From: a virus
Length of the DNA: 37,300 bases
Reading direction: 5' to 3' (one strand)
IMG/VR virus record: IMGVR_UViG_3300023196_001274
Span: 1 to 37,300 of that record
Part shown: positions 18,662-33,319 of the stretch, in pieces
Layout of the letters: each line of letters begins with the position of its first letter
Position numbering within the stretch: position 1 is the first letter of the stretch
Position numbers and translations under genes: made by a program
The notes under the pieces: generated by a model
What the model was told of the DNA's origin: nothing
The model's database searches: none
The model's input: only the letters and a program-made list of their open reading frames with translations

Positions 18662-19417
18662 ATGGCAGCAGTAACAGCGGTAGTAAGTGGAGCGGTAATG
18701 ATCGGCGGCGCGGCAATTTCCGCATCGGCAGCGGGGAAAGCAAGTAGAAAAGCAGATAGAAAAGCAAACGCTGCTGCTAGAGAAGTTGAAGCTTTAAGAA
18801 ACTCTAGACAAGAAGTAACAAATCCCTATAGAAACATTAGTGATCTAAGCGGTTTGGCGACTGACTTAAGTGGCCAAATGAGTAATCCATTTAATTCCCT
18901 AGGCGTAGCTACTAAATCAGCTGAAATCCAAATGGAACAAACTGACATAGCACTGGCAAACACCTTAGATACATTAAGATCCACTGGCGCTAGCGCAGGT
19001 GGCGCTACAGCATTGGCCCAAGCCGCGCTACAAAGCAAGAAAGGCGTTGCAGCTAGTATTGAACAGCAAGAGGCTCAAAACGATAAATTACGCGCGCAAG
19101 GAGAACAACAGCTGCAGCAACAAAAAATGTCTGAGCAACAAAGATTACAATCAATTGCTATTTCAGAAGGTCAAAGAGTACAGTCTGCTGATGCCGCTGG
19201 TCAGCAATTTATGTTTCAAGCTGAAGAATCTAGAACAAATATGGATCTTAACAGAGCTGCCGGTGTTCAACAGCAACAACAACAGATGTCCGCTCAAGCT
19301 AATCAAAACAAGGCCGCAGCGTGGGCTGGTGCTGTTCAAGGCATTGGTAATTTAGCTGGTTCTGTTATTAGCGCAGAAGGTCAAGCGCAGAGCGGCGGTA
19401 AAAGCTTGTTTGATTAA
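18662..19417 (+). CDS. Internal virion protein, T7 gp14-like
   Basis: A 251-residue protein. The first 25 residues (AVVSGAVMIGGAAISASAAG) form a Gly/Ala-rich hydrophobic helix, followed by a basic segment (KASRKADRKANAAA). The rest is a long helical, Gln/Ala-rich region (IEQQEAQNDKLRAQGEQQ, SEQQRLQSIAISEGQRVQS) with a second small-residue hydrophobic segment near the end (AAAWAGAVQGIGNLAGSVIS). This is the pattern of T7 gp14-type core proteins, which leave the head with the DNA and insert in the outer membrane to start a DNA channel. It precedes two other likely ejected proteins. No sequence identity is claimed; the call is by composition, helices and gene order. Confidence 0.68.
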   Translation: MAAVTAVVSGAVMIGGAAISASAAGKASRKADRKANAAAREVEALRNSRQEVTNPYRNISDLSGLATDLSGQMSNPFNSLGVATKSAEIQMEQTDIALANTLDTLRSTGASAGGATALAQAALQSKKGVAASIEQQEAQNDKLRAQGEQQLQQQKMSEQQRLQSIAISEGQRVQSADAAGQQFMFQAEESRTNMDLNRAAGVQQQQQQMSAQANQNKAAAWAGAVQGIGNLAGSVISAEGQAQSGGKSLFD

Positions 19418-19471: not shown

Positions 19472-21211
19472 ATGGGAGCATACGAAAATCCACAACCAAT
19501 TATAGACAGATCTGGAGAAATATGGGGCCAAGCTATCGCTAGTTTCGGCACTAGCATTGGCGCGGGCATAGCTCAAGCCGCTACTTATAGAGCAGCTGCT
19601 AAGAAAGAACAAGAAGCCGAAGACCAAAGAATACAAGCTATAGGTTACGAAATTGAAGAGAAAACTTGGGACGAAGCTAACATAAACTACCAAAAAGTAC
19701 TTGAAAAAAACCCTTCTCTAGCGGATCAATTCAAAGCAGAAACTGCATTGCTTTTAGATGGAGATGGAACAGAGGAAAACCGCGGGGCCATTTGGGCTCA
19801 AACCCAACTAGCGACAGCGAGGAATCTTTCGAAAGAAGATAGAAAAAAATATAGAGACATAGCGCAAAGAGCTGTAGATTTTCAAAACGTAGTACAAAGT
19901 GGTGGTGCTAATATAATGGCTGATCTTGAAGACATGAAAAACATAAAGCCTGGAGACGTCGGCTCAACACATTACTATGTTGGAGATACACTCATGGACA
20001 GGTTAAAGTCTCAATTTAGTTCTGCTGTTTTAAGTAATCAAAAAATCCCTGGGGCTGAAACAAAAAAAAGCCTTAAACCAGATGAAAATGGAAACGCGAT
20101 TGTAGGCGTTGAAACAGTTTTCGACACAACAACAGATGCTGGTAAAAAAATGTTAACAGATTTTCCAGAGTTAGCGGATCAAGTTAAAGATGGTAAGTTA
20201 GTATTTAATTGGAGTAGAAATATCATGGAGATCGGTGATGGATTTATAAGAGAAATACCAAAAGGAGCAGATCCAACAATTGTTTTTCAGAATTCTAACG
20301 CCACAGATGCTTCAGATGTTTTAACACCCAACATGTTTTTACCAAGCAAGATAACTAGAGAGAAAAGTGGCGCTAAGGGTATTGATCAAGTTTTCACCGA
20401 CAACATCATAAATACACAGGGCTTGAAGGACGACAGTGTTTTTCAAGCACAAATACATGCAACTGTTAGCGCTAGAATAGCTGAAGACCCAGGTAACTTA
20501 AGGTCTTATATGCAAAATACTTTAAAAATGGGACCTGGTTATGATTACTCTGGTTTTATGAAGCTTCCTGCTGATAAAAAAATAGAAATATTAAAAAAAG
20601 AAGAAGAAGATAGGGTTATAGGAGTAAAGTTAGCTAAATATGGCTCTAGATCCGCGACTAAAGAAGACGTTGCTTTTTTTAATGTTAACGCTAAAAATAT
20701 ACAAAGCGGCGAAGTTGGCAGCGTAACCATTGAAGAAGGAGAACAAATATATTTTCAAAGAAAAGAAGCTAATATGAACGCTGAAACACCAGCTTCAGCA
20801 ACCCCGCTAAAAGACTGGCAGGCTAAAGCAGAACAGAGAATTCCACAATACAATCAAACAGCTGAATTTGTAAATACAATAAATGATACAGAATCTGATT
20901 TAACGCCAATAAAAAAATCAGAAAAAATAGCACAAGAATTAAATAGGTCTACAGAAGGTAAAAATTATATTACCGGCGATCAGTATGCATTACAAAGCAA
21001 GGATGTAAAAGGAAAGAGCTTTGCTGAAAGATCAGCTTTTCTTCGTGAACAAGGAATGTCACCTTTCAACGTGTACAACGCCAATGATCAAAATGATTTT
21101 GTAAACGTTGTTGATCCAATTGATTTATTTAACGATTTGTTATCTAAAAAAGGATTTACCACTGACGCAATAAATTACATCGAACAAAACTATTCACAAT
21201 ATAAAGAATAA
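19472..21211 (+). CDS. Internal virion protein, probable ejection protein
   Basis: A 579-residue hydrophilic protein between the gp14-like and giant ejection-protein genes, and so in the place of T7 gp15. Residues about 20-45 have a small-residue helix (AIASFGTSIGAGIAQAATYR) followed by a charged coiled coil (AAAKKEQEAEDQRIQAIGYE). The central part contains mixed helices and strands (GVETVFDTTTDAGKKMLTDF, DGFIREIPKGADPTIVF), and the C-terminus is helical (DLFNDLLSKKGFTTDAINYI). There is no catalytic motif or signal peptide. It starts after a poly-A rich leader (19440-19471) and is followed 5 bases later by the next gene. Likely job: part of the DNA-ejection conduit, by position only. Confidence 0.6.
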   Translation: MGAYENPQPIIDRSGEIWGQAIASFGTSIGAGIAQAATYRAAAKKEQEAEDQRIQAIGYEIEEKTWDEANINYQKVLEKNPSLADQFKAETALLLDGDGTEENRGAIWAQTQLATARNLSKEDRKKYRDIAQRAVDFQNVVQSGGANIMADLEDMKNIKPGDVGSTHYYVGDTLMDRLKSQFSSAVLSNQKIPGAETKKSLKPDENGNAIVGVETVFDTTTDAGKKMLTDFPELADQVKDGKLVFNWSRNIMEIGDGFIREIPKGADPTIVFQNSNATDASDVLTPNMFLPSKITREKSGAKGIDQVFTDNIINTQGLKDDSVFQAQIHATVSARIAEDPGNLRSYMQNTLKMGPGYDYSGFMKLPADKKIEILKKEEEDRVIGVKLAKYGSRSATKEDVAFFNVNAKNIQSGEVGSVTIEEGEQIYFQRKEANMNAETPASATPLKDWQAKAEQRIPQYNQTAEFVNTINDTESDLTPIKKSEKIAQELNRSTEGKNYITGDQYALQSKDVKGKSFAERSAFLREQGMSPFNVYNANDQNDFVNVVDPIDLFNDLLSKKGFTTDAINYIEQNYSQYKE

Positions 21212-21216
21212 CAATT

Positions 21217-24200
21217 ATGCCAAGATATAAAACTAGTTCAGGAGATATATATAATATTCCTGAGGAAAAATTACAAGGTTTTTTAGTTAAATATCCAGAC
21301 GCTATTTTATTAGAAGAAGAGGGAAAGCTAAACGGTCCTGCGGAGGAGACTGCAGTTGCAGGGCCAATAACAGAGGCGCAGCAAACAGCAGTAGACACGG
21401 AATCTCCATTGGAAGATGGTTCTTTGGACTTACTACCAACTGAAGTATTTACTATAGACGGTAAAAATGTAAGTAAAAAAGAATTTGATAAATATACGGC
21501 TATTCAAGAAGCCGTGAAGACAACTGAACAGTTAGAAAGTGAAGATCCGTCGGTTTTTGATAAGATTGGCTATGAATTATTTAAAACAAAGCAATACGTC
21601 TTTAATGCTTTGGGAGACATACCAGAGCGAGCTAAAAAAGTTTACTTAGAAACACAAGCTGTAAGTAATGATTGGATAAAAAAAGTAGCTGGAGAAGATG
21701 CTGCTGATTTTTTATTTGGTGAAAATATACCTGAAGGTTCTATTGCCTATATAGACCCAGAAAGCAATAAACAGGTTTTGTACTCTGAAAACCCTGATAA
21801 ATGGAAAGAATTAAATGCTTTAAACCAAAGAACTGATACCTACGTAAAAAGTGTATATGCTGGATCTGACCAAGAGCTTGGTGCTGCTGCTGACAAAAAA
21901 TACATAGAAGTAATGAAACAAGCTGATAAGCTTGGTAAAGAAATGCAGTATACCGGTGCTGGTATGACCGCCGGGTTTAAAGGATTAGTTGGCGCTGAAG
22001 GATATGAAGAGTATGGTGCCGCTGATTTACTGGCTGGTGGTTTTAACGCGGTATTTAATGTTTTAGAAACAGCTGTTCCAGCCGTTCTAACTAGAGGCGC
22101 TAGTATTTATCCACAAGTGGCGGCTCCAATGTTTGCCGACTATAACAGAACAAAAGCGGAAACATTATATCCTAATTCAGAAAATGCTTTAGAGCTTTTG
22201 GTTGAAAACAATGAAGTTGAATTTACAACACCAGCAATATTATCAACAATTGCTGTTCAGTCTGAGAGACTTGGTTTAAAAGGTTTATCAAATTATATAA
22301 TGAGAGCTCCTTTAGCAAGTAAAGGTATTTTAAACATGGCTAGATTAGCCACCGTGAGCTCTGGAGAAGGAATGGTAGAAGTTTCGCAAGGTATAACAGA
22401 TACTATAAATAATACTATTGCACAAGGTAAAACATCAGCAGAAGTATCTGAACAAATTGTTAAATACATTGGTTCTGATCAAGCCCTAGACGATTTTTTA
22501 GGTGGTTTTGTTGGGCAAGCAGGTGTTGGGATAGGTGGTAGAGCTATAAATAGAGCGCTGCGTGGCGGTAGTCAAGGCCAAGCAAAAGTAAACACACTGC
22601 TGACAGATCTTGAGAAATTAAAAAACGAAAAAAAACAAGCAAAAAATAAAATATCCAAAGATGTTATTCAAGAAGATATAGCTCAAAAAGAATCTGAGTT
22701 AAAAAAATATATAGAAGAAAACAAAGAGGTATCTAAAAAACTAACAGAACAGGAAAAACAAGAGTTGTTAAATTTATTAGACGAAAAAGACGCTTTATAT
22801 TCTCAAGCATTTGATTTAAGAACTCAAAAAAGTGAAAATTCAATATCCAATAAAGACTATGGTTACGCGATAAGAAGTATTAATAACCAAGCAAAGCAAA
22901 AAGACAATAGGATAGATGAGATTAGACAAGACGCAGCCAAGAGAGAGATTGAAGTAATAGCAGAAAAAGTATCAAAAGTTTCTAAATTGCTTGGAGGAAA
23001 AGCACTTCAAATTTTTGAAACAACAGAAGAATATATAGAAGCCGTAGCAAAAGACCAAGACGTAGATGTTCAAGAAGCTAGATCTATGATAGGAGAAGCA
23101 GAAGGCGTCTTTGCCGGCGCAGGAAACATATTTATCGACAAGCAACAAGCGGCTAAGGTTGGTAATATAGGTGTTGCTGCTCACGAGTTTTTGCACCCAG
23201 TGTTAAACGCTTTGGTTGGAGATGTTAATCAACAAGTCGAAATAGTTAACGGTTTTGAAAAAATACTATCTAAAGATCAAATAGCAAAGGTAAATGAAAA
23301 ACTAGAAGCTTATAAAGACGAGAAAACTGGCAAACTAGATCCTAGCGTTAGAGCTTCTGAATATCTAACTATTTTTTCCAATGCTATAATAAATGGTGAC
23401 ATACAATATAACGAAGGTATATTTACCAGAATAGGTGATTATATACGTGGTATTTTAGGAAAATATGGTTTTAAAAACGCTAATTTTGAAACAGGTAAAG
23501 GTGTTTACAATTTCTTAAAAGAATATAATAAAACGATTCAGAAAGAAGAAGGAATAAGTCAAAGAGCTTTAGATTTGATTAAAAAGCGCGAAACAGAAAC
23601 TGGTGTAAAAGTTTCAGAGGTTGGTGTGCTAGAAGGACTTCAAGCCTCTCAAACAAAATTAACAGAAGAGGATTCCACGTTAGTAGGAGAGCAGGTCACT
23701 AAAATAAAAGAACTACAACAAGAAGGCGAAGCACTTGCTAAAAAATACGGTAAAGACTTTATTAAATCATCTACACAAACTAGATTAGAGCAAAAGTTAA
23801 CTGAAACAGTTGAGCCAGCCTTAAACGCTTTAGCTGAAAATACAACAAAAAGACTTTACGATAAAATAGCTCCAGACGCAAAGAGAAACGTGTCAAGAGC
23901 CGAATATTTAGAATCATTGAAAGCCGACTGGACTTCTATGATAATAAATGAATATGATCCTACAAAACAAAGTGTTGAGAAGTTTTTGTCAACACGTGGT
24001 AACCTTCGGGCAAATAGCCTCGCGAAGAAGCTAGGTATTGAAGACGCTGAACAAGGTGGCATTAAAAAAGATGTTACAGAGCAGAAAGATTTAATGGCAG
24101 ATGAAACAACTGTTGAAATAGAAAAAGCTCCATCAAAACTTATTGATCCAACTGATTTAATTACCAACCCAGATAGAAAAAATAAATATATAGAGGCTGT

Positions 24201-27200
24201 TAAGTCAAAAATAAAAGACCTCACGCCTAAGCAACTATCTTTCAAGGCTTTAAAAGATTTAGCCCCAGAGGTAACAGCTGAGTTATTTGGCGTACCACTT
24301 AAAAAAATAATAGATGCAACCGCTAATTTAAGTAAGGGTGATGCTCTAAACGCTCAGATTTTTATAAATAAAAATGCAGAAAAGCTATTAAAGCTTTTAC
24401 CAGAAGGGGCGGTTCTTGGCGCTGCTAGTGATAAATTAATAGGCACATCGACAGGTGTTCCTAGAAAATTGCTTGAAGCTTTTTACGAAAAACAAGATAG
24501 AATAACAATTGACGCTGGTTTGTTTCCATTTGTTAAAAAGAAAAACATATCAAAAGAAGATTTCTTAAATACATTTGGTATTGTTGATGGTAAAAAAGAT
24601 ATTGATTTTAATCCTAGATCTGGAGAGGCACAGGCTATAAAAGGATTAATGTCAATGTTTGGTAATATTATGACCAACACAGTTGTAAGACAAGAAATGT
24701 CTAAGCAACCTGGAACAGAAGCAGCCGTGCAAGATATAGCTGCTGGCAAATCTCAATTACAGTTTAGTACAACTGCGCAAAGAAACGAAGCTTACAGAGG
24801 AGCTAAAGCTATTAGTGAGCACGGTGTTGATTCTAAACAGTTTAAAGATTTAAATGTATCCAAAGAAGTAAAGCAATTATTAAAAAAGTTAGCTAATAAA
24901 AAAGTTATTACTGGTAATACATTTAATGGAATAGTGTACGAAGAAATAACTTCAAGTGATATAAAAAAATATGCTAAAGAATTAGGATTAGACTTGAAAG
25001 TTTTAAGCAACAAATCTGCTGGTTATGATAGCACCAAGCCAGACATACAAATTAAAGCAAAAAGAGAGATTGGAGATGATGTTATTGTAAATTTAGAAGT
25101 AAAAAAAGATAAATATGCTAGATTCGGTAGTGTTACTTTTAGATTTAATTTTGAGAACTTTGATAAACCTAAAATAGAAATAGTACAAAATAGAAAAATA
25201 GTAAAACCTGGTGAAATACAAAATGAAGAGGTTTTTACGTCTATTTTAAACGAAGCTATTCCTTATATTAAAGAAATTTTAACTACAATAAACGAAATAG
25301 AAGGCACTAATTACAATAGTTTTCCACTTGGTTCTAAAATAAAATCAACAACTTTTCAAAAACTAAAACAAACAAGTGCTTTTGCAAGTTTAAAGTCAAT
25401 ACAAAAAGGACTTAATTCTTCTGTAATAGCTCAACACTACAATAAAAAAGGTAATTACTATATACAAATTGGCAAGTCTGGGTTATATTATTTAGGGGAA
25501 GATGTTTATAACACAGGTGTTCCAAGATTAGATGTTGTTTTTAGTGGAAGTATAAATTTAAAACGTAGTGGTATAAAAGACGGTATGACCACAATTAGCT
25601 TGAGATCTGAGCCAAAAATAAAAAAAGCGGGTCAACTTAAAAAATCAAATATTGATTTAAATACAAAAGAAGGTGTTAAAGAGTTTGACGAAAAAGTAAA
25701 AACTTCTACTTTTCAATTTTCTAAAACAGCAAAAGCTACAAAAGAAAAAATACTAGATACTCAATTTAACAGTATTCTTGAAAACAAAACTGGTATTGCT
25801 TCTGGAAAAGAATACAGTGACGCAAGAGCCGAGGTAGTTGGTGCTAGTAAAGGTAAATTTAATTGGTTTATTCCGCCTACAGCTGAAGACTTTGTTGGGT
25901 TGTTATATCAATTTCTAGGCAAAGGTAAAGAGGGTGACAAGCAAATGGCTTGGTTTAAGGTTAACCTATTAAATCCTTATGCTAGAGCAATGAGTGCTAT
26001 TACTAGAGAAAGAGTTAGTATTGCTAGAAATTACCGAGCGCTTAAAAAAGAATTGAAAATTGTACCTAAAAACTTAAAGAAAAAAGTTCCAGGTGAAGAT
26101 TTTACAGTTGAACAAGCCTTAAGAGTACACATATGGGTTAAGCAAGGGTATGACGTTCCTGGTTTGGACAATGCTGATAGAAAATCTATCAACGACTACA
26201 TTGACTCAAGACCTGAGTTAGTTGAGTTTGCTGATAAAATGATATTACTAAACAAGGATTACGCCAAACCAAAAGATAGCTGGTTAGCAGGTACGCTAAC
26301 AACAGACATGTTAGAGACACTTAACACCACAAGACGTGCTGAGTTTTTAAAAGAGTGGCAAGAAAATGTTGATGTTGTATTTAGCGATAAGAATTTAAAT
26401 AAAATAGAAGCCGCTTATGGTTCTAGCTTTAGATATGCTTTAGAGAATATACTAACTAGAATGAAAACTGGTAGAAATAGAAGCTATGGCACTGACTCCT
26501 TGACAGGTAGGGTTACTGATTGGTTAACAAATTCTATTGGTGCTATCATGTTTTTCAACACTAGATCAGCAGTGCTACAGACGCTCTCTGCTGTTAACTT
26601 TATAAACTTTGGCAGTAACAATATATTAGCCGCTGGTAAGGCTTTTGCTAACCAAAAACAATTCTGGGCAGATTTTAAAACGCTATATAATTCTGACTTT
26701 TTAGTTGACAGACGCGACGGGCTTAGATTAAACGTCAATGAAAGTGATATTGCTGACATGGCTAAAAACGGAGGTGTTAAGGGTGTTGTGGCTGAGTTAT
26801 TAAAACTAGGTTTTACACCAACTCAAATAGCAGATAGCTTTGCTATTTCCTCTGGAGGAGCTACATTTTACAGAAATACTCTTAACCAGTATCTAAAAGA
26901 AGGTGTTGACCCTAAGGTTGCGGAAGAATTGGCTTTTAGAGAATTTAGAGAAATAGCCGAAGAGTCACAGCAATCAAGTAGACCAGATAGAATTAGCGCT
27001 CAGCAAGCAGGTCCACTAGGGCGTATTATATTAGCCTTTGCCAACACACCAGCTCAGTATGCTAGATTAATGAAAAAAGCCGCTAGTGATCTTAAGAATG
27101 GTCGTGGGGACGCTAAGACAAACGTATCTAAGCTTATATACTACGGAGTAGCTCAAAACCTTATATTTAATGCCATGCAACAAGCTTTATTTGCTATGGC

Positions 27201-27750
27201 TTTTGGCGACGACGAAGAGGAGGAAGAAACAGAGCAAAAGAAATATATTAACATAGCTAATGGTATGTCCGATAGTATTCTGCGCGGTATGGGTATTAGT
27301 GGTGCTATTGTTTCAGTGCTTAAAAACACAGCTAAGAAGCTGATTGAAAGATCTGAAAATAAACAACCAGACTATGCTGAAAACGCATTGATGGAATTGT
27401 TGAAAATATCACCACCGGTTTCATCTAAAGCTTCTAAGATTAAAAATGCGTTAAGATCCTACGAGTGGGATAAAGATGAAATGTATGAAAAAGGCTTAGC
27501 GTTAGATAATCCGGCATATTTAGCCGCTGGTAATGTTTTATCAGCAGCGACTAACGTACCTCTTGACAGAGTAATTAAAAAAGTCACAAACGTCAAAGAC
27601 GCCATGGATGAAGATGTTCAATTGTGGCAACGAATAGCCATGATAGCTGGTTGGCAAGCCTGGGAATTAGGTATAAAAGAAGAAAAGAAAGCCAAATCTA
27701 AAGGATCAAGTTTTAAATCAACAAGTTTTAAATCAACAAAATTTAAGTAA
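21217..27750 (+). CDS. Giant ejected virion protein with protease and nuclease motifs
   Basis: A 2177-residue polyvalent-type protein, probably injected with the DNA. Residues 1-35 hold a short motif (YNIPEEKLQGFLVKYPDA) that I recall at the start of such proteins. A coiled coil spans about 465-600. At 656-660 is HEFLH, a zinc-metallopeptidase HExxH motif; E715 in ASEYLTIF is a possible third ligand. At 1275-1296 lies a PD-(D/E)xK pattern: P1275-D1276, then E1294-V-K1296, followed by RFGS. From about 1530 is a large helical domain with hydrophobic helices (GAIMFFNTRSAVLQTLSAVN and IYYGVAQNLIFNAMQQALFA), a candidate membrane-interacting region. The tail SSFKSTSFKSTKFK comes from a DNA repeat. 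Enzyme activity is inferred from motifs only. T7 gp16 is an analogue, not a homologue. Confidence 0.8.
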   Translation: MPRYKTSSGDIYNIPEEKLQGFLVKYPDAILLEEEGKLNGPAEETAVAGPITEAQQTAVDTESPLEDGSLDLLPTEVFTIDGKNVSKKEFDKYTAIQEAVKTTEQLESEDPSVFDKIGYELFKTKQYVFNALGDIPERAKKVYLETQAVSNDWIKKVAGEDAADFLFGENIPEGSIAYIDPESNKQVLYSENPDKWKELNALNQRTDTYVKSVYAGSDQELGAAADKKYIEVMKQADKLGKEMQYTGAGMTAGFKGLVGAEGYEEYGAADLLAGGFNAVFNVLETAVPAVLTRGASIYPQVAAPMFADYNRTKAETLYPNSENALELLVENNEVEFTTPAILSTIAVQSERLGLKGLSNYIMRAPLASKGILNMARLATVSSGEGMVEVSQGITDTINNTIAQGKTSAEVSEQIVKYIGSDQALDDFLGGFVGQAGVGIGGRAINRALRGGSQGQAKVNTLLTDLEKLKNEKKQAKNKISKDVIQEDIAQKESELKKYIEENKEVSKKLTEQEKQELLNLLDEKDALYSQAFDLRTQKSENSISNKDYGYAIRSINNQAKQKDNRIDEIRQDAAKREIEVIAEKVSKVSKLLGGKALQIFETTEEYIEAVAKDQDVDVQEARSMIGEAEGVFAGAGNIFIDKQQAAKVGNIGVAAHEFLHPVLNALVGDVNQQVEIVNGFEKILSKDQIAKVNEKLEAYKDEKTGKLDPSVRASEYLTIFSNAIINGDIQYNEGIFTRIGDYIRGILGKYGFKNANFETGKGVYNFLKEYNKTIQKEEGISQRALDLIKKRETETGVKVSEVGVLEGLQASQTKLTEEDSTLVGEQVTKIKELQQEGEALAKKYGKDFIKSSTQTRLEQKLTETVEPALNALAENTTKRLYDKIAPDAKRNVSRAEYLESLKADWTSMIINEYDPTKQSVEKFLSTRGNLRANSLAKKLGIEDAEQGGIKKDVTEQKDLMADETTVEIEKAPSKLIDPTDLITNPDRKNKYIEAVKSKIKDLTPKQLSFKALKDLAPEVTAELFGVPLKKIIDATANLSKGDALNAQIFINKNAEKLLKLLPEGAVLGAASDKLIGTSTGVPRKLLEAFYEKQDRITIDAGLFPFVKKKNISKEDFLNTFGIVDGKKDIDFNPRSGEAQAIKGLMSMFGNIMTNTVVRQEMSKQPGTEAAVQDIAAGKSQLQFSTTAQRNEAYRGAKAISEHGVDSKQFKDLNVSKEVKQLLKKLANKKVITGNTFNGIVYEEITSSDIKKYAKELGLDLKVLSNKSAGYDSTKPDIQIKAKREIGDDVIVNLEVKKDKYARFGSVTFRFNFENFDKPKIEIVQNRKIVKPGEIQNEEVFTSILNEAIPYIKEILTTINEIEGTNYNSFPLGSKIKSTTFQKLKQTSAFASLKSIQKGLNSSVIAQHYNKKGNYYIQIGKSGLYYLGEDVYNTGVPRLDVVFSGSINLKRSGIKDGMTTISLRSEPKIKKAGQLKKSNIDLNTKEGVKEFDEKVKTSTFQFSKTAKATKEKILDTQFNSILENKTGIASGKEYSDARAEVVGASKGKFNWFIPPTAEDFVGLLYQFLGKGKEGDKQMAWFKVNLLNPYARAMSAITRERVSIARNYRALKKELKIVPKNLKKKVPGEDFTVEQALRVHIWVKQGYDVPGLDNADRKSINDYIDSRPELVEFADKMILLNKDYAKPKDSWLAGTLTTDMLETLNTTRRAEFLKEWQENVDVVFSDKNLNKIEAAYGSSFRYALENILTRMKTGRNRSYGTDSLTGRVTDWLTNSIGAIMFFNTRSAVLQTLSAVNFINFGSNNILAAGKAFANQKQFWADFKTLYNSDFLVDRRDGLRLNVNESDIADMAKNGGVKGVVAELLKLGFTPTQIADSFAISSGGATFYRNTLNQYLKEGVDPKVAEELAFREFREIAEESQQSSRPDRISAQQAGPLGRIILAFANTPAQYARLMKKAASDLKNGRGDAKTNVSKLIYYGVAQNLIFNAMQQALFAMAFGDDEEEEETEQKKYINIANGMSDSILRGMGISGAIVSVLKNTAKKLIERSENKQPDYAENALMELLKISPPVSSKASKIKNALRSYEWDKDEMYEKGLALDNPAYLAAGNVLSAATNVPLDRVIKKVTNVKDAMDEDVQLWQRIAMIAGWQAWELGIKEEKKAKSKGSSFKSTSFKSTKFK
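27708..27747 (+). repeat. 15-bp tandem repeat encoding SFKST tail
   Basis: AAGTTTTAAATCAAC occurs at 27708-27722 and again at 27723-27737, with a third, imperfect copy at 27738-27747. It encodes the last residues (SFKST, SFKST, KFK) of the giant virion protein. A basic Ser/Phe/Lys tail of this kind may be a packaging or capsid-binding signal. Confidence 0.8.
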
Positions 27751-32752: not shown

Positions 32753-32918
32753 AACATTTGATATTATATTTATCCTGTATCTCTACAAGTTCACTGAACT
32801 TGACTTTGCCTCTAGTCATCATAGACCATTTAACCCATTTGTCGATCTGGCGCTCGACGTATTTTTGTCTAGCTAATTTCTTCGAGTTAGCTGGATCATG
32901 TCGATTGTTTTGTCGCAT
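32745..32918 (-). CDS. Small basic helical protein
   Basis: A 57-residue frame, ATG at 32918, TAA at 32745-32747. MRQNNRHDPANSKKLARQKY is followed by VERQIDKWVKWSMMTRGKVK, then FSELVEIQDKYNIKCYG. It is helical and positively charged. It overlaps the end of the upstream nuclease gene by 46 bases and the start of the next small gene by 8. Good amphipathic pattern and consistent coupling argue for a real gene. Function unknown. Confidence 0.58.
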   Translation of the reverse strand: MRQNNRHDPANSKKLARQKYVERQIDKWVKWSMMTRGKVKFSELVEIQDKYNIKCYG

Positions 32919-33319
32919 TCTGTTTGATTTTGTGGTTTATATAATACCCTATTGTCACTATTATCGTGCATCCATTTTTTAAACATCTTCCAACGTAGTG
33001 GAAATGATTCGTTGGCTCGACCCTTGCATTCTATAATAAAGTCTTCACCAATAAAATCTGGAGTGTATTTGATGTTAAGTATTTTCTTGCAACCTCTGTT
33101 TCTGTATTCCCCCTTGCCGTTGGACTGTCTCTCGATAGATTCACTAGCGAACTCAAAAGCAGGTAGTAGCTCAAATGTTTGACCTTCGTAGTCAGCTTTG
33201 ATCTTAGCTTTTTTTAAGGCCATATACATATATCTCTCAAGACCGGAAGCAAAGTTGATCCCATCATATGTTATCCGCTTTGCCCGTACTGGTCCTTTTT
33301 TTTTAGATCTCTTTTTCAT
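32873..33319 (-). CDS. PD-(D/E)xK nuclease, DUF1064-like
   Basis: A 148-residue nuclease of the PD-(D/E)xK fold. Visible active residues: E28 in ASGLERYMYM, P87-D88 in YTPDFI, and E97-C-K99 in FIIECKGR, then LRWKMFKKW. This arrangement matches phage proteins of the DUF1064 type, thought to act as endonucleases or Holliday-junction resolvases in replication or packaging. The first 16 residues are highly basic (MKKRSKKKGPVRAKR), useful for DNA binding. It overlaps both neighbours slightly. Within the replication operon it most likely resolves branched DNA before packaging. Confidence 0.83.
   Translation of the reverse strand: MKKRSKKKGPVRAKRITYDGINFASGLERYMYMALKKAKIKADYEGQTFELLPAFEFASESIERQSNGKGEYRNRGCKKILNIKYTPDFIGEDFIIECKGRANESFPLRWKMFKKWMHDNSDNRVLYKPQNQTECDKTIDMIQLTRRN

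Follow-up and report, generated by a model that had tools for sequence, protein, structure and literature searches.

A giant phage protein that combines a conserved predicted zincin frame with an exchangeable slot for a predicted restriction-enzyme-fold nuclease

The IMG/VR record IMGVR_UViG_3300023196_001274 (positions 1-37,300; this whole stretch of 37,300 nucleotides is the window referred to below) represents part of the genome of a marine Bacteroidota podovirus, and the end of its late-gene block is an open reading frame (ORF) of 2177 aa for a giant, probable virion-cargo (polyvalent) protein (21217-27750, plus strand, as are all features within the gene). By comparison with its relatives we show that the predicted architecture of this protein consists of a conserved frame, made up of a zincin metallopeptidase domain, a second core region and a long C-terminal domain, and of a slot bounded by FS-containing motifs and occupied in this protein by a PD-(D/E)xK nuclease with an HhaI-like fold. 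As judged from sequence, the two putative enzymes differ in status. Almost all family members have the zincin as part of their core, whereas the nuclease is an optional cassette that is exchanged. An initial annotation of this DNA had proposed both enzymes in the one chain; the gene coordinates and every residue it named (H656-E-F-L-H660, E715, P1275-D1276 and E1294-V-K1296) are as it gave them, RFGS lies at 1302, and both folds are backed by conserved residues and predicted structures.

Results

Relatives of the giant protein were drawn from IMG/VR, where a search with the whole protein found three loci, one with aligned C-terminal domains found 80, and a further one gave at least 560 relatives. 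Removal of duplicates left 142 proteins among the matches listed, the window's own included, and the 135 that are complete at the 5' end range from 1905 to 3604 aa. All relatives share the C-terminal family domain (residues 1513-2160, 25753-27696), at 44-75% identity. The second core region (residues 801-1181, 23617-24759) has blastp matches in 36 relatives; it has no Pfam match above the cut-off and corresponds to no known family. The whole 2177-aa protein found no match in Pfam, in PHROGs or by tblastn of phage records, and a search of a collection of bacterial and archaeal genomes found one relative only, L094; this sits on a 63-kb contig of a Sphingobacteriales metagenome-assembled genome (JAAXIF010000025.1), a contig that may itself come from a phage and have been binned with that assembly.

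The putative zincin domain spans residues 585-800 (22969-23616), with the predicted zinc-binding and catalytic motif HEFLH at residues 656-660 (23182-23196). The motif is unlikely to have arisen by chance, because only 0.1% of composition-preserving shuffles of the window protein contain an HExxH, and it is present in 123 of the 135 5'-complete relatives, where shuffling predicts 0.19% per protein. E715 (23359-23361), 59 residues beyond the first histidine, is the probable third zinc ligand, as the initial annotation had guessed: 75 of 76 aligned relatives have glutamate at this position and one has aspartate. In an alignment of 50 rows (A2) the sole invariant columns are the H, E and H of the motif and E131, which is E715; since the aligned rows were picked for HExxH, only the last of these columns is an independent test.

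An AlphaFold2 model of the domain (predicted local distance difference test, pLDDT, 85.5; predicted template modelling score, pTM, 0.79) places HExxH inside helix 69-83 and the ligand glutamate inside helix 125-141. In the VIA structure comparison, which together with residue conservation forms the fold evidence for both models described here, the nine top PDB rows were all M34-type zincins (Z 5.3-4.2), the first unrelated row scoring 3.5; comparison of sequence profiles with PDB chains produced no credible match. Nearly all members of the family have the zincin fold, and most of them, though not all, retain its active site. Several of the 12 proteins without HExxH retain a recognisable altered domain with QEVGH or EExFH, and such replacement of the first histidine suggests either that peptidase activity was lost more than once or that the site has altered. 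Substitutions of this kind (EExFH, QEVGH) were seen in L059, L143, L146, L164 and in L057, L063.

The slot was delimited by comparison with the closest relative, L001 (the same as L012), which is 54% identical over residues 528-1184 and 69% over 1500-2159, and in which residues 1185-1499 are swapped for an equally long, unrelated segment. In DNA, homology is lost sharply at 24772 and is back at 25763. Both slot edges bear QFS in the window phage and in L001: the left edge is QFST (residues 1182-1185, 24760-24771), at which homology stops (nucleotide 24772, residue 1184), and the right edge is QFSK (residues 1500-1503, 25714-25725), where FS motifs cluster within 15 residues. The initial annotation had taken loss of the named residues in close relatives as a sign against its proposal; the zincin residues are mostly kept, and it is the nuclease cassette as a whole that is absent from L001.

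Elsewhere in the family the slot holds other domains, a HAD-like one in 89 of 134 proteins by a motif rule, and in further relatives an ART-PolyVal domain (E 6.3e-5, under the Pfam cut-off; the match was run on L058 alone and covers residues 74-205 of the tested protein) or other unrelated domains. Five relatives have a nuclease cassette followed by a HAD-like one. An ART-PolyVal-like ADP-ribosyltransferase domain was noticed in or near the slot of L058, L060, L061 and L026. A cassette related to that of the window occurs in only ten of the 135 proteins, the tenth (L091) assigned from slot position and residues and not by profile, and for these ten carriers the well-supported branches of the tree force at least six changes of nuclease presence.

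The predicted nuclease cassette covers residues 1205-1485 (24829-25671). Statistics of the PD-ExK motif were dropped as evidence, the pattern PD-x(8-30)-[DE]xK turning up in 65% of shuffles; because the motif by itself is not evidence, we judged the nuclease real by its conservation in relatives. The other nine copies are 18-39% identical to that of the window, and in the ten-copy alignment (A5) the invariant residues are E1242, the acidic residue of helix 1 of the predicted active site (24940-24942), D1276, the D of PD (25042-25044), E1294 and K1296 of the ExK half (E1294-V-K1296, 25096-25104), and one tyrosine; the four catalytic candidates correspond to A5 columns E38, D72, E90 and K92. The proline of PD varies, and some copies have G in its place.

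In the AlphaFold2 model of the cassette (pLDDT 81.3, pTM 0.76) the order of elements, helix(E)-strand-strand(D)-strand(ExK), fits the alpha-beta-beta-beta core of PD-(D/E)xK enzymes. The top VIA row was HhaI endonuclease (Z 11.2, rmsd 3.3, 178 residues), far above the next; rows 2-11 were either PD-(D/E)xK enzymes or chains from defence complexes that include a nuclease. MspI, Hjc, HinP1I and I-Ssp6803I followed HhaI, with EcoRV and FokI later. From this fold match we infer that the four residues would share one pocket in the model. Fold comparison had been named at the outset as the check on both domains, and it gave a PD-(D/E)xK match for the nuclease and a modest one for the zincin. Foldseek returned nothing significant for the nuclease model against the PDB; against predicted viral structures it returned phage proteins, including the standalone Q58MG2 of Prochlorococcus phage P-SSM2. 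This protein (PSSM2_192), recognised by structure search and by sequence, and gp181 of P-TIM40, recognised by sequence, keep the catalytic residues and share the stretch YYIQ..GLYYM with the window cassette, from which they differ in being free-standing, 225-259 aa long and annotated as hypothetical. A scan of viral contigs with the cassette only gave no matches.

The motif [KQR]FS[KR] is enriched across the family, with 136 observed against 25 expected (for example in L026, L058, L086 and L104). Forty-five of the 136 fall within a 30-residue stretch at the boundary of the C-terminal domain, and such stretches make up about 1% of all residues; 68 more lie between the zincin and that boundary, four N-terminal of the zincin and six within the C-terminal domain. 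This clustering is due in part to shared descent, and the motif could be a protease site, a docking peptide or a conserved linker. We hypothesize a link to the zincin; presence of the motif did not differ significantly between proteins with intact HExxH (76 of 123) and those that have lost it (5 of 12; Fisher 0.22). Other variants of the FS pattern gave p values down to 0.012 and were not used, as several patterns were tried and the rows are related.

Terminase, portal and virion proteins are encoded upstream of the giant gene, as expected of a late-gene location in a portal-terminase phage. The terminase and portal are nearest to those of phage ctfjg026 (MW202828; 63% and 53%), then to those of Flavobacterium elemo phages (45% and 43%), with Cellulophaga phages after those. 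The giant gene closes the late block, and the giants of an elemo phage (3694 aa, annotated 'structural protein'), Cellulophaga phi38:1 (gp101, 1691 aa, a 'structural protein' label given by similarity) and ctfjg026 (3859 aa) occupy the same position. The elemo giant bears the same zincin domain (E 7.8e-15, HEIFH at 1543). We do not claim that the C-terminal domain is homologous to the giants of phi38:1, phi19:3, elemo and ctfjg phages, since the scores fell within or close to those of shuffled controls. Synteny with the annotated structural proteins of cultured relatives indicates that the giant protein is probably carried in the virus particle.

Discussion

We consider it likely that the giant protein is a polyvalent cargo, packaged in the virion and delivered with the DNA, whose zincin acts on the protein itself or on partners and whose nuclease cleaves DNA. 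Gene order and annotated relatives suggest that the protein is packaged in the particle and enters with the genome. The zincin would act on it or its partners, releasing domains either in the head or inside the cell, and the nuclease would then cleave DNA, most simply that of the host or of competing mobile elements early in infection. Exchange of cassettes between phages is in keeping with an arms race in which the delivered effector is at stake.

Several observations weigh against this interpretation. The 'structural' labels of the cultured relatives were given partly by similarity, and homology to those giants rests on gene order and, for elemo, on the zincin, because the family C-terminal domain has no significant match in the phi38:1, phi19:3, elemo or ctfjg giants. 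Fold support for the zincin is modest (Z 5.3), its model finding nothing significant with Foldseek against the PDB. HExxH is lost or altered in 12 of 135 proteins, for which the tree requires about ten separate changes, so not every member of the family can depend on peptidase activity. Finally, no sequence-specific restriction is seen, since no palindromic tetramer, GCGC included, is specifically avoided in cassette carriers.

The last point also bears on the nuclease's target. The cassette might work in phage DNA metabolism, as a resolvase, in recombination or in packaging-linked trimming, instead of attacking host or rival DNA; Holliday-junction resolvases (Hjc) are among the next-best folds (Z 6.6-5.4), the standalone homologues sit among nucleotide and replication genes of T4-like cyanophages, and carriers show no avoidance of tetramer restriction sites. 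We regard such a role as quite unlikely: an accessory effector fits better with a cassette carried by ten of 135 proteins in a slot also used by ART-PolyVal and unrelated domains, and a separate small ORF of PD-(D/E)xK appearance (32873-33319, described below) sits with the DNA genes of the window. That the catalytic residues never vary among copies otherwise 18-39% identical to the window's calls for purifying selection on the active site. This makes it very unlikely that the enzyme-like folds are inactive remnants in a protein with a structural or channel role, even though QEVGH or EExFH replaces HExxH in some relatives and the syntenic phi38:1 gp101 is without both enzyme domains.

For the zincin, the choice is one of substrate. 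It may cut a host protein after entry and leave the giant protein unprocessed, which we hold to be somewhat unlikely; the solved structures closest to it in fold are those of secreted M34-type peptidases, and the domain is retained in most relatives whichever cassette occupies the slot, but fold similarity is uninformative on substrate, and the FS junctions, together with the published reasoning on polyvalent proteins (PMC5512222), suit processing equally or better. Processing by zincins is a published theme for polyvalent proteins (PMC5512222). An extension of the polyvalent-cargo reading, speculative and in our estimate doubtful, is a self-processing delivery platform in which the constant zincin cleaves at [KQR]FS[KR] junctions and frees whichever effector has been acquired; if this is true, effectors could be swapped with the delivery frame unchanged.

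Zincins and ART domains are established components of polyvalent proteins (Iyer et al. 2017, PMC5512222), and the initial annotation was right to place the protein among them: it has several unrelated enzymatic domains, its architecture varies among relatives, and it shares with them a very long multidomain chain, a zincin with variable effectors, ART-PolyVal as an alternative and a late-gene location. It differs from them in the FS-motif junctions and in the predicted PD-(D/E)xK restriction-fold DNase in a swappable slot, which is new beside the known zincin polyvalent proteins in the literature searched, later work having been covered in part. The zincin resembles M34 (lethal factor/PPEP) enzymes in its HExxH, in the spacing of the glutamate and in predicted helix arrangement, and Iyer et al. 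also linked the zincin of the N4 virion RNA polymerase to the M34 type (PMC5512222); the sequence similarity of the window's zincin to M34 and N4 zincins is below detection. The nuclease is like the type II restriction endonucleases HhaI, MspI and HinP1I in predicted fold and in its E...D...ExK active site, and unlike them it is embedded in a 2177-aa phage protein, with no methyltransferase partner noticed in the window and no avoidance of GCGC. Another Bacteroidota podovirus, crAss001, stores giant proteins that are to be ejected in its head and tail (cargo proteins gp45-gp50, PMC10172136); as a difference, its giant cargo proteins are related to RNA polymerase.

The family of at least 560 relatives, from uncultured marine phages, gains a readable architecture of constant zincin frame, swappable slot and defined junction motif, and a predicted restriction-enzyme-fold DNase joins the list of domains that may enter the host together with phage DNA. 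The published proposal of zincin processing in polyvalent proteins is made testable at named residues and sites.

Other features of the window

The initial annotation had put the giant protein behind a pair of other proteins that are likely to be ejected. The late block does have two ORFs ahead of it (18662-19417 and 19472-21211), but neither is identified by any family. It had also credited the chain with hydrophobic helices, yet no 19-residue segment attains a Kyte-Doolittle mean of 1.3, and no canonical membrane helix is seen. Among the DNA genes, an ORF of 148 aa on the minus strand (32873-33319; KYTPDF...FIIECKG) resembles by eye a small PD-(D/E)xK phage endonuclease, and L002 has a similar ORF.

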